Positions 43,173 through 47,172 of a DNA stretch of 64,000 nucleotides are shown here, one piece after another; position 1 is the first letter of the stretch; each line of letters begins with the position of its first letter. The notes beneath the pieces are model-generated. The model was not told where the DNA came from. It saw nothing but the letters and a program-made list of their open reading frames with translations, and did not search any database. This DNA is from Flavobacterium sp. 9AF (GTDB lineage: Bacteria > Bacteroidota > Bacteroidia > Flavobacteriales > Flavobacteriaceae), in the NCBI RefSeq assembly GCF_902506265.1, contig NZ_LR733556.1, positions 2,598,144-2,662,143 on the forward strand. Direction: 5' to 3'. A program made the position numbers and the translations under genes.

Positions 43173-44564
43173 ATGGGAAATAAATTATCAGGAAAAGACC
43201 TAATCAAATTAGGCTTTCCAAAGAATAACGCCATCAATATTGCTTTAGGGCAAATTAATAGATACAGAAAAAGAGAAAAAAAGGAAAGTATTTTAAATGA
43301 AGCCAAAGAGGTTTTATTGCATCCAGAAAAGTTTAAAATGCATGGTACTTGGGGAAAAGTAGCAGAAGGGTTGGTAAATCCGGTTCAAGTGAAATTCAAC
43401 CAATTAAAAAATACAAGAGCACCTTTTTCCATTTTTGGAGAAAATGAAATCGATGAACAAGCAAAGTTTCAATTGTACGATGCTTTAAAATTACCCGTAG
43501 CAGTTAAAGGTGCTTTAATGCCCGATGCACACTCTGGTTATGGTTTGCCAATTGGAGGTGTTTTGGCAACTGAAAATGCAGTGATCCCTTATGGCGTAGG
43601 TGTCGATATTGGTTGTAGAATGAGTTTGTCCATTTTTGATTTACCAGCTTCTTTTTTAAAAGGAAAAGACCATCAATTGGAAGCGATTTTAAAAGACCAT
43701 ACCCAATTTGGTATGTATGAAACACACAAAATCAAAGCCGATCATGAGGTGTTTTATCGCAACGAGTTTGATACAATTCCTTTACTGAAAAAGTTAAAAG
43801 ATAAAGCGTATAAACAATTGGGTACATCTGGTGGAGGGAATCATTTTGTGGAATTTGGTATTGTAAAATTAGAGCAACCCTTACCCGAATGGAAATTAGA
43901 ACCTAAAGAATATTTAGCGGTATTATCACATAGTGGTTCAAGAGGTTTGGGAGCAAATATTGCGAAGCATTATACGTATTTGGCAACCAAACAATGTCCG
44001 TTGCCTAAAAATGTACAGTATTTAGCTTGGCTCGATTTGAATACACATGATGGTCAGGAATATTGGTTGGCGATGAATTTAGCAGGTGATTATGCCAAAG
44101 CGTGTCACGATGATATTCACAGAAGAATAGCCAAAGCTTTAGGAAAACGAGTAGTGGTTACGATAGAAAACCATCACAATTTTGCTTGGAAAGAAACGGT
44201 TGATGGTAACGAATGCATTGTGCATCGAAAAGGAGCAACCCCAGCGCAAAAAGGAGTTTTAGGCATTATTCCTGGTTCCATGACTGCACCTGGGTTTATC
44301 GTTATGGGAAAAGGAAATGAAGCCAGTTTAGATTCTGCTTCTCACGGAGCTGGGCGTTTGTTTTCAAGAGCCAAATGCAAAGCAAATTTTACGCAAAGTC
44401 AGATTAAAAAAGAATTGGCCGCACAAGATGTGAAATTAATAGGAGGCAATGTAGACGAAGCTCCAATGGCGTATAAAGACATACACAAAGTAATGGCTTT
44501 ACAATCGGAATTAGTGGAGGTTTTAGGCACATTTACCCCTAAAATAGTACGAATGGATCGCTAA
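43173..44564 (+). CDS. rtcB: RtcB-family RNA ligase
   Basis: 463 residues. Core motifs of RtcB: LMPDAHSGYGLPIGGVLAT, GVGVDIGCRM with metal-binding Cys148, GGGNHFVEF with His224, LSHSGSRGLG with His253, ENHHNFAW, HRKGATPA and SASHGAGRLFSR. In the last motif His391 is in the position of the guanylylated histidine. The enzyme joins 2',3'-cyclic phosphate or 3'-phosphate to 5'-OH RNA ends using GTP and Mn. An N-terminal segment of about 60 residues (KLGFPKNNAINIALGQINRYR) is typical of the RtcB forms encoded beside prfH. It heads a plus-strand series with a nucleotidyltransferase and prfH, so rRNA or tRNA repair is likely. Confidence 0.93.
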   Translation: MGNKLSGKDLIKLGFPKNNAINIALGQINRYRKREKKESILNEAKEVLLHPEKFKMHGTWGKVAEGLVNPVQVKFNQLKNTRAPFSIFGENEIDEQAKFQLYDALKLPVAVKGALMPDAHSGYGLPIGGVLATENAVIPYGVGVDIGCRMSLSIFDLPASFLKGKDHQLEAILKDHTQFGMYETHKIKADHEVFYRNEFDTIPLLKKLKDKAYKQLGTSGGGNHFVEFGIVKLEQPLPEWKLEPKEYLAVLSHSGSRGLGANIAKHYTYLATKQCPLPKNVQYLAWLDLNTHDGQEYWLAMNLAGDYAKACHDDIHRRIAKALGKRVVVTIENHHNFAWKETVDGNECIVHRKGATPAQKGVLGIIPGSMTAPGFIVMGKGNEASLDSASHGAGRLFSRAKCKANFTQSQIKKELAAQDVKLIGGNVDEAPMAYKDIHKVMALQSELVEVLGTFTPKIVRMDR

Positions 44565-44587
44565 TTTTTTTGTAGGAGCGAATGGTT

Positions 44588-44680
44588 TGGGCATTTTTGG
44601 CTCACCATTTTCCCGCTTTTCGAAGTAGTCCCGAAATATCGGGAGCTACTTCCTACAATCGGGGCTAAACAGGAAGCCAA
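44588..44680. repeat. Dispersed intergenic repeat with inner hairpin
   Basis: Starts GGGCATTTTTGGCTCACC, contains TTTCCCGCTTTTC and an inner hairpin (GAAGTAG...TCCCGA, TCGGGA...CTACTTC), and ends CTACAATCGGGGCTAAAC. The TTTCC-GCTTTT...CTACAATC-GGGCTA skeleton recurs at 62104-62170. It lies in the 283-base space between rtcB and the nucleotidyltransferase. Confidence 0.6.
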
Positions 44681-44726
44681 TCGAATTTTTGGAAAGAGAG
44701 ATGAAGTAGTTAACTCTAGTTACTCG

Positions 44727-44777
44727 TCAGTTCGAGTGTTTTTGTGTAGTGAAACGAAACAAAAAAGTATCGAGAAC
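44727..44777. repeat. GTCAGTTCGAG...TCGAGAAC dispersed repeat, copy 2
   Basis: TCAGTTCGAGTG at the left, GTATCGAGAAC at the right, a variable centre with AAACGAAAC. Same edges as 42997-43059 and 49855-49878. Confidence 0.65.
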
Positions 44778-44847
44778 ATTCTTATAAGGAATGAATTTTT
44801 AAATGAAGCATGTTTTAATAGTGACATGTTTATAATAAATAATAAGT

Positions 44848-45393
44848 ATGGGAGCACCACATAATAAAAACAGATATGGTGAACTATGGAATCAAAATAG
44901 AATCGATGAAAGTTTAAAAATCTTACATCTTTTAAAAGAGTACATCGTTCTCTCAGGAGGTTGGGCCTGGCATTTTATGAGCATACCCAATCATATAGAG
45001 TATAAACACGCTCACGATCATAAAGATATCGACATTTTTGTACATCCTAAAAATGTAGCAAAAGTGATGGAAGTGTTATTAGGAAACAGTTTTGAAAAAG
45101 TTTGGACAAGATATGATTATTTGTATAGTGCAGAAAACTTTAGAAGATATGAAAAAGTAATTGCAATAACTAATGAAAAAGCATTTCGAATTACAATTGA
45201 TTTTTTTGAAAGAGCTGATTTACAAACGGAAATATGCAATGGTTTTACAGTGGTATCTCCAGAAATGTTATTGCGTTTTTATTCTAATATACATTCCAGC
45301 GATAAATGTTGGGCGGTAATTAAAGCAAAGGAATTTTTAGAGAAAGGAATCAATCCAATAGGAAGAAAAGAACTCTCTGAAATACCAAAATAG
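44848..45393 (+). CDS. Nucleotidyltransferase-fold protein between rtcB and prfH
   Basis: 181 residues without signal peptide. [11 protein letters not shown] (about 34-44) is the GG/GS nucleotide-binding turn. HDHKDIDIF gives the paired aspartates D60 and D62, and RITIDFF gives the third carboxylate D118. These are the complete catalytic set of the polymerase-beta-like nucleotidyltransferase superfamily, as in AbiEii-, ANT- or HEPN-MNT-type proteins. The product could add a nucleotide to RNA ends, to a protein or to a small molecule. The location between an RNA ligase and release factor H suggests an RNA-end or ribosome-related role. It begins 283 bases after rtcB and ends 7 bases before prfH. 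Confidence 0.8.
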
Positions 45394-45400
45394 TAAAATT

Positions 45401-46135
45401 ATGAACAATAATAATAAGAAGTCACTTTCTTCCTCTCCGTTGGAGAGGATTGAGGTGAGGCTAATACAAATCACCTCAGGAAGAGGTCCAGCAGAATGTA
45501 CTTGGGTAGTAGCTCAGGTTGTAAAAAAAGTGTTGGAAGAAGCTCATGAAAAACAGCTAAAAGCAACAGTTGTGCAACGCGAAGCTGGTCAGGAAAACGG
45601 AACGGTTGAAACAGCTATTATTCAACTGGAAGGTAAAAATGCAAGCACTTTTGTTGCTTCTTGGGTAGGCGCCATTCAATGGATTGGTAAGAGTACGTTT
45701 CGAAAGTTTCACCAACGTAAGAATTGGTTTGTAGGTATTTTTGAAATTGAACAATCAAAAGATACTGCATTTCATGAAAAAGACGTGCAATACCAAGCCA
45801 TGAGAAGTTCTGGTGCAGGTGGCCAACATGTAAATAAAGTGAGTTCTGCCATTAGAGCGACACACATTCCTACAGGTATTGCTGTAGTTGCTATGGATTC
45901 GAGATCACAACATCAAAATAAGAAGTTAGCTACGGAACGCTTAAAACAGAAGATTGAAGAAAACAATTGGAACCAATTTAAAAATCAGGAGCAACATACT
46001 TGGTCGAATCAAATGCAAATAGAACGCGGTAATCCTGTTCGGGTTTTTGAAGGTTCCGATTTTAAGAAGCAAAAAGAGGATAAAAGTTATAAAAAAGAGC
46101 GATTGAAATTGAAACGACAAGATTATAAGGAATAG
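45401..46135 (+). CDS. prfH: Peptide chain release factor H
   Basis: 244 residues. The RF-1-type catalytic domain has [21 protein letters not shown] with GGQ at 140-142 and [11 protein letters not shown]. The N-terminal [20 protein letters not shown] and [14 protein letters not shown] are RF-H marks; codon-recognition domain 2 of RF1/RF2 is absent. RF-H is known to act with an RtcB paralog on ribosomes with damaged 16S rRNA. The first 18 codons lie on a repeat-like sequence (45431-45460). An in-frame GTG at 45455 would give a 226-residue protein that starts right at the conserved [10 protein letters not shown] list ATG 45401 but GTG 45455 may be the native start. Confidence 0.92.
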
Positions 46136-46140
46136 CACTT

Positions 46141-46228
46141 TTTTGCGTGAAGGATTGCAGCGAAAAGCCCACAATGAGGAACGAATGAGGACTTGTAGCG
46201 CAAAGCCTGACCTGAAAGGGCACGCCCA
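46141..46228. repeat. Dispersed intergenic repeat after prfH
   Basis: Contains GCGTGAAGGATTGCAGCGAAAAGCCC, then GAGGACTTGTAGCGCAAAGCC and CCTGAAAGGGCACGCCC. It is more GC-rich than its surroundings, non-coding, and of the type I recall as common between flavobacterial genes. Only one copy is in the window. Confidence 0.5.
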
Positions 46229-46233
46229 AGACA

Positions 46234-46268
46234 GAGGAAAGAGGAAAGAGGAAAGAGGAAAGAGGAAA
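46234..46268 (+). repeat. Heptanucleotide microsatellite (GAGGAAA)5
   Basis: Five perfect tandem copies of GAGGAAA, 47 bases before the start of the TPR-like gene. The tract is non-coding, so copy-number change could alter promoter spacing or mRNA structure rather than reading frame. Confidence 0.9.
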
Positions 46269-46314
46269 GAGTATACGTTACTAACCACTAATTACTAAAA
46301 ACTAATTACTAGAT

Positions 46315-46848
46315 ATGAAATCAATAGATAAATATTTGTTTCAAGCGATGGATAATTATCCGTATTGTTTGGAAGAAACCATAGAGTCTTTAGATTATGC
46401 CTTATCTTATGACGATAAGAATACAACCGCTTTATGTTTGTATGCGCGAATACAAGCCGAGCAATTGTTTCATTATGAGGAAGCGAAAAATTATTATGAA
46501 CAAGCCTTAGGTATAAATATTAATGCGATTGAAGTGTATCCTTTTTACATTCAAACCTTATTGTGGAATGAAGATTTTGAGGAAGCCGCTACGTTGATTG
46601 ACTTTGCTTTAACGGTAAAAGGAATCAATAAAGTTGAGATTTTGATGAAGAAAATTCAATTTTTAGAGATAAAAAAAGAGTTTAAAGCAGCCAAAAAAAT
46701 CTTGAAAGAGTTGCAGTTACTAGTCGTTTCAAATGAATATACGTATTATTTGGAAGAAACTAAGAAAAGAATCAATGAGAAACTAGCACTCCTAAAACCT
46801 AAAAAGAAAAAAAGTAAGAAATCTAAAAAAGACAAAAAGAAAAAATAA
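46315..46848 (+). CDS. TPR-like protein with poly-lysine tail
   Basis: 177 residues with paired helices of TPR size: YCLEETIESLDYALSYDDKNTTALCLYARI, FHYEEAKNYYEQALGININAIEVYPFYIQTLL, EDFEEAATLIDFALTV and EFKAAKKILKEL. The last 20 residues are almost only Lys and Ser (KPKKKKSKKSKKDKKKK), which would bind nucleic acid or ribosomes. It follows prfH on the same strand after 179 bases of repeats. A link to the RNA-repair unit is possible but unproven. Confidence 0.78.
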   Translation: MKSIDKYLFQAMDNYPYCLEETIESLDYALSYDDKNTTALCLYARIQAEQLFHYEEAKNYYEQALGININAIEVYPFYIQTLLWNEDFEEAATLIDFALTVKGINKVEILMKKIQFLEIKKEFKAAKKILKELQLLVVSNEYTYYLEETKKRINEKLALLKPKKKKSKKSKKDKKKK

Positions 46849-47010: not shown

Positions 47011-47172
47011 ATGTTAAAAAAAGTTTTCAATCAAACGGGAATTAAAGTACTAAGTAATGAAGAAAAAAAGAACATTAATGGAGGATTAGCTTGTAGGCCA
47101 GATGGGTCTTGTCCAAGAGGGAGTTACTGTGTAACTTCTGGAACATTTGAAGGATTGTGTAGGCCTTTATAG
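47011..47172 (+). CDS. Double-glycine-leader peptide (bacteriocin/RiPP-like precursor)
   Basis: 53 codons, ATG to TAG. The leader MLKKVFNQTG + IKVLSNEEKKNINGG has the LSxxExKxIxGG pattern of Bacteroidota precursors that are cut after GG by peptidase-containing ABC exporters. The predicted mature part of 28 residues (LACRPDGSC, PRGSYC, VTSGTFEGLCRPL) has four cysteines at 28, 34, 40 and 50, enough for two disulfides. The gene was too short for ordinary ORF lists. A TAATTTTG box lies upstream and a terminator follows (47296-47326). No exporter or modification enzyme is adjacent, except that a PhyH dioxygenase gene follows. Activity as toxin, signal or neither is open. Confidence 0.75.
   Translation: MLKKVFNQTGIKVLSNEEKKNINGGLACRPDGSCPRGSYCVTSGTFEGLCRPL

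Follow-up and report, generated by a model that had tools for sequence, protein, structure and literature searches.

Positions 43173-46848 of a 64,000-nt stretch of DNA from Flavobacterium sp. 9AF (hereafter the window, to which all coordinates refer) carry four plus-strand open reading frames (ORFs), in the 5' to 3' order rtcB, a nucleotidyltransferase (NTase) gene, prfH and a TPR gene. The four-gene unit is real and conserved, and its NTase is tied almost absolutely to the PrfH-RtcB repair system. We lean, if narrowly, towards reading the whole as a single RNA-repair and ribosome-rescue cassette, in which the NTase would repair or tail 3'-OH ends of RNA, most likely of tRNA. An earlier reading of the DNA, made from the sequence only, had presented the unit as a new find; the same set of genes had appeared in print in 2019 (PMC6514570), and the window cassette is a member of that described system, the gene association itself not being new. 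What is added here is a census, the occurrence of the NTase with a second PrfH lineage, its coexistence with RlaP, its viral RtcB context and an objection drawn from end chemistry. The core features are the following:

43173-44564, plus strand: rtcB, RNA 3'-phosphate/5'-OH ligase, 463 residues, Pfam RtcB PF01139 at E 4.9e-82
44848-45393, plus strand: the NTase, a release factor H (RFH)/RtcB-associated nucleotidyltransferase of the Pol-beta superfamily, 181 residues
44953-44961, plus strand: SGG, NTase residues 36-38, invariant in all homologues
45025-45033, plus strand: DxD metal-binding pair D60 and D62 of the NTase, invariant in all homologues
45199-45201, plus strand: D118, third catalytic carboxylate of the NTase, invariant in all homologues
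45401-46135, plus strand: prfH (release factor H), 244 residues, NCBIfam TIGR03072 at 239.4 bits against a cut-off of 166.65
46315-46848, plus strand: TPR protein, 177 residues, with a Lys-rich C-terminal tail (46795-46845), TPR_19 at 26 bits against a cut-off of 25

The ORFs and homologue alignments bear out the sequence-only reading in its description of the four genes, the 7-bp gap between the NTase gene and prfH, and the GG turn with D60, D62 and D118. SGG and the three aspartates are invariant in 28 bacterial homologues, and also in a set of 21-22 bacterial and viral homologues. The translated RtcB displays the motifs GGGNHF, SHSGSRG, ENHHNF and SHGAGR, and its gene is the sole RtcB gene of its own genome. 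The GGQ of PrfH, encoded at 45818-45826, is intact.

The best 80 homologues of the NTase in GTDB genomes, found in Flavobacterium, many Chryseobacterium, Kordia, Aquimarina and others, adjoin prfH and/or rtcB, with a few of these loci cut by contig ends or bearing broken frames. Among 376 Flavobacteriales genomes, PrfH scored over its cut-off in 76 and the NTase in 30, and all 30 NTase genomes were PrfH-positive (hypergeometric P = 6e-24, a value that overstates the independent events because the sampled genomes are related). The NTase gene and prfH share a contig in 29 of the 30, separated by 13-585 bp (median 17 bp), and lie on separate contigs of a draft in the remaining one. The same nesting recurs in a family sample (NTase in 4 of 249 genomes, PrfH in 18 of 248, each of the 4 being among the 18) and in a phylum sample of 365 genomes (NTase in 7, PrfH in 27, the former again a subset of the latter), and no bacterial NTase without PrfH was found in the family, order and phylum samples. 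A search of 72,556 plasmids gave no NTase. The NTase is thus neither unique to this strain nor as common elsewhere, and its earlier assignment to the RtcB/PrfH unit stands; since 46 of the 76 PrfH genomes do without it, the enzyme is an accessory of PrfH loci.

Because the census genomes are related, the case for independent associations is built on gene orders and the PrfH tree rather than on the P value. The genes occur in three orders: rtcB-NTase-prfH-TPR, as in the window; rtcB-prfH-TPR-NTase, in Kordia sp. and Aquimarina; and rtcB-TPR-prfH-NTase, in K. algicida. On the PrfH tree, NTase presence needs 14 changes, at least 6 of them forced by well-supported branches, and there is repeated gain or loss of the NTase. 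In K. algicida the NTase shares 73-78% identity with the Kordia sp. and Aquimarina enzymes, whereas PrfH shares only 37-39% with its counterparts there and falls into another deep lineage, so that the NTase was joined to a second PrfH lineage. RtcB and PrfH of the window follow the genus, RtcB being 81-90% identical to that of NTase-free Flavobacterium; gain or loss of the NTase therefore took place around an rtcB-prfH pair that was already resident. Broken prfH or rtcB copies beside an intact NTase gene (L040, L064 and G564) were considered as a sign of independence of the NTase and were dropped, as some may be assembly errors.

The NTase belongs to the Pol-beta/minimal nucleotidyltransferase (MNT) superfamily, having the G[GS]...DxD...D set in a Pol-beta fold. 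No Pfam or NCBIfam family model scores it above the curated threshold, and it therefore represents an unnamed subfamily; a profile search of PDB sequences gave no match, and a PHROGs search only a single sub-significant one. The structure prediction that had been proposed for the enzyme was run, and the AlphaFold2 model, built on bacterial and viral homologues, has a mean predicted local distance difference test score of 91.4. Structural comparison of this model gave VIA Z scores of 10.3 with ANT(2'')-Ia, 10.2 with LnuA, 9.6 with both MenT1 and MenT3, and 9.1 with JHP933, differences below 1 being counted as ties. As the ANT/LnuA and MenT scores tie, fold by itself does not tell which acceptor the enzyme uses. 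The NTase gene is under purifying selection, with dN/dS of about 0.1.

Relatives of the NTase, with 41-54% identity, are present in huge-phage and viral contigs, namely the 735-kb phage genome LR756501, the equal-length record LR756503 and 13 IMG/VR contigs, whose viral status is as classed by IMG/VR. RtcB is encoded in 8 of the 10 viral NTase records searched whole, a rate that has no size-matched contig control beside it, and in 661 of 50,697 phage records overall. In L209, rtcB starts 238 bp past the NTase stop codon, and in L205 and L210 it lies about 2 and 4 kb from the NTase gene, respectively. In 6 of 14 viral loci an array of 4-16 tRNA genes is found no more than 8 kb away; two pairs among these 6 seem to come from the same virus. 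No PrfH over the cut-off was found in the 10 records (profile matches in three were well below it and are not counted), nor any TPR homologue near the viral NTase copies. Since the viral copies come with RtcB, without a clear PrfH and in several cases near tRNA arrays, RtcB is probably a deeper partner of the NTase than PrfH, and tRNA a likely substrate; the contexts shared by viral and bacterial copies indicate RtcB and tRNA more than PrfH. In jumbo phages, RtcB is reportedly less common than the other ligases (PMC7824862). We found no published account of the viral NTase/RtcB context.

Genes that overlap the NTase gene were also inspected. The viral one at L200:8564-9391 carries DUF5915 (PF19302), a domain that occurs in isoleucyl-tRNA synthetases, a further hint of tRNA. 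For the one in L199, a macro domain was considered and dropped for want of Pfam support.

In the proposed cassette, PrfH would free the peptide from ribosomes that RNA damage has brought to a halt, and RtcB would reseal RNA breaks with cyclic-phosphate/5'-OH ends, activities established for the E. coli homologues. E. coli ATCC25922 has an RtcB2-PrfH operon that confers protection from colicin E3, which cuts 16S rRNA at A1493/G1494: PrfH enters the A site of the colicin-E3-cut ribosome and releases the peptide, and RtcB2 reseals A1493-G1494 (PMC9223846). Both systems pair the ligase with release factor H; the E. coli operon, however, has two genes and neither NTase nor TPR gene, whereas the window locus encodes the only RtcB of its genome. 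We propose that the metal-dependent NTase extends RNA with a 3'-OH end, which is no substrate for RtcB, by one or a few nucleotides; its likeliest target would be the 3' end of a tRNA that has been damaged or trimmed, and the second likeliest the 3' end of 16S rRNA. It would thus act as a repair branch complementary or parallel to the ligase, not as a step directly preceding RtcB ligation, and the basic-tailed TPR protein would probably scaffold the factors on the ribosome. Going further, the NTases might constitute a family for the repair of RNA 3'-OH ends, distinct from RlaP and CCA-adding enzymes, common to flavobacterial PrfH-RtcB islands and large RtcB-encoding phages. Its targets would be ends of tRNA that suffer damage during toxin or anti-phage conflicts, and it would give RtcB systems a second repair chemistry; this extension is possible, though less likely than not.

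Four observations weigh against the cassette reading as proposed. The NTase is missing from 46 of the 76 PrfH genomes; its fold matches antibiotic adenylyltransferases and the tRNA-modifying MenT toxins equally well; the NTase family is near neutral (median isoelectric point 6.6), PrfH being basic; and the viral RtcB rate has the limit given with it above.

The sequence-only reading had offered the rebuilding of a lost nucleotide before ligation, and in the closest rival the NTase, in the manner predicted for RlaP, would restore nucleotides lost at the site of breakage, with sealing by RtcB or another ligase to follow. Such rebuilding has been predicted for this NTase (PMC6514570) and, in jumbo phages, for RlaP (PMC7824862), and true RlaP genes are found in the same islands. 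The proposal runs into a chemical problem. Pol-beta enzymes extend a 3'-OH and leave one. RtcB joins a 3'-phosphate or 2',3'-cyclic phosphate to a 5'-OH (PMC7824862), and a nucleotide added by the NTase would therefore not be sealable by RtcB alone. The fill-in product would require an additional end-processing enzyme, and no end-modifying enzyme is a fixed cassette member in the compared loci, which favours a parallel branch acting on 3'-OH ends. Moreover, RlaP already fills the rebuilding niche in several loci, and we regard rebuilding at the break as unlikely. A shade less probable is a translational brake like MenT, by which the NTase would tail or mask tRNA 3' ends during ribosome repair or serve as a toxin. 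MenT enzymes act on tRNA, and the Z scores of 9.6 to MenT1 and MenT3, with an aligned share of the model at least as large as that for ANT, would agree with this, as would the phage and translation context. However, no constant antitoxin-like partner recurs across the 98 prfH/NTase loci that were compared, where uncharacterised neighbours do exist, and phage copies kept with RtcB and tRNA genes favour protection; the earlier idea of a toxin-like partner thus finds little support despite the resemblance in fold.

Inactivation of a ribosome-targeting antibiotic by an ANT(2'')/Lnu-like enzyme riding with a ribosome-protection cassette would account for the best fold matches (ANT(2'')-Ia and LnuA) and for weak matches to Pfam Aminoglyc_resit and NCBIfam Lnu models. 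These sequence matches lie far under the curated cut-offs (LnuP 18.9 against 300 bits), the best Aminoglyc_resit E among family members is 3.5e-5, and the window NTase has no match to that model at E <= 1. The NTase is absent from the plasmids searched, and the strict PrfH linkage and the RtcB-bearing phage contigs would be odd for a resistance gene, making this role improbable. Nor do we give much weight to nucleotidylation of a protein partner (RtcB, PrfH, the TPR protein or a ribosomal protein) as a means of regulating the cassette, even though protein nucleotidylation occurs in the wider Pol-beta/MNT fold and the same proteins keep constant company with the NTase: as the viral copies have no PrfH and no TPR homologue nearby, RtcB would be the only possible common target, and it is absent from 2 of the 10 records. 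That the NTase is a chance neighbour or hitchhiker with no shared role is very improbable; its accessory distribution among PrfH genomes would suit such a view, yet the co-occurrence, the three gene orders, the two PrfH lineages and the purifying selection argue against it. Among these readings we retain repair or tailing of 3'-OH RNA ends.

Comparison with known systems places the cassette closest to that of Burroughs and Aravind 2019, whose main text describes RFH-RtcB with a TPR gene and with a Pol-beta NTase that was uncharacterised and bore no specific relationship to RlaP, lists in addition a Zn-ribbon protein with a charged C-terminus and a charged-helix protein, predicts RNA repair and proposes the repair of trimmed tRNAs (PMC6514570). 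The two agree in the four components and the counter-ribonuclease repair context, and the charged-helix and Zn-ribbon proteins are neighbours in relatives of the window locus too. As the gene sets match, the window NTase presumably corresponds to theirs; that main text differs in having no census, viral relatives or second-lineage case. No experimental study of the NTase was found in the literature searched. RlaP (PF10127) likewise has a Pol-beta fold and partners RNA ligases in bacteria and jumbo phages. However, PF10127 matches none of 28 NTase members (E <= 0.1), in contrast to E values of 4e-65 and 3e-27 for island RlaPs, and since RlaP and the NTase share islands they are different enzymes. 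Compared to ANT(2'')-Ia and LnuA, the NTase has the same minimal fold and size, with Z of about 10, but only 12-20% identity and another genomic setting. The MenT1 and MenT3 (TglT) toxins and JHP933 share the core fold, while the NTase differs in its linkage to repair genes.

In the 98 compared loci, the TPR gene is present in 88; it usually accompanies prfH whether the NTase gene is there or not, which bears out its suggested place as a fourth member; its basic tail (at least 50% K/R) is found in 57 of 89 copies. A conserved, highly charged protein of about 245 residues with no Pfam match is encoded upstream of rtcB in 61 loci (e.g., L011:3649-4386); beside the rtcB of the window, no ORF for it was called at full length. 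Less frequent neighbours include a Zn-ribbon protein in 10 loci, a Band_7 protein in 9 and RlaP in 6, of which 4 are NTase-positive. An AAT/NAAA-type N-terminal-nucleophile hydrolase is inserted beside the NTase gene in 4 loci (L131:5033-5983, L132, L077 and L081). In addition, an RNase_T exonuclease gene directly follows or lies near the NTase gene in 4 Kordia/Aquimarina loci, a neighbour that would fit a trim-and-rebuild process.

Two further features of the window affect the reading of its transcript and of PrfH:

44565-44847, plus strand: rtcB-NTase spacer, 283 bp, containing an inverted-repeat element and, at 44721-44738, a terminator-like hairpin
45433-45460, plus strand: repeat-like insert (CTCTCCGTTGGAGAGGATTGAGGTGAGG) within the 5' end of prfH, which lengthens or alters the PrfH N-terminus

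As the spacer holds the terminator-like hairpin, expression of rtcB and the NTase gene as one transcript is to be read with reserve; its sequence is not the same in the more distant relative L009. The insert supplies part of the first ~20 residues of PrfH and is variable among relatives, close ones included (L006-L009). Between prfH and the TPR gene, a 7-bp unit, AGAGGAA, is perfectly repeated 5.6 times in tandem (46233-46271). Just 3' of the TPR gene, a short ORF (47012-47172) with a GG motif and a Cys-rich end (GGLACRPDGSCPRGSYCV...) resembles a ribosomally made peptide precursor. No Rfam family was found in the locus, and the PADLOC-DB 2.0.0 anti-phage defence models gave no significant match for rtcB, the NTase gene or prfH, and only E 0.008 for the TPR gene.

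PrfH-RtcB is among the few systems shown to reverse an RNA cleavage that kills the ribosome. Being strictly linked to that system, small and intact in its active site, the NTase is directly testable in vitro, and its occurrence in large phage contigs makes its job easier to test. Its role, once established, would show which second type of RNA damage has to be undone in these bacteria and in the phage contigs where it accompanies RtcB.

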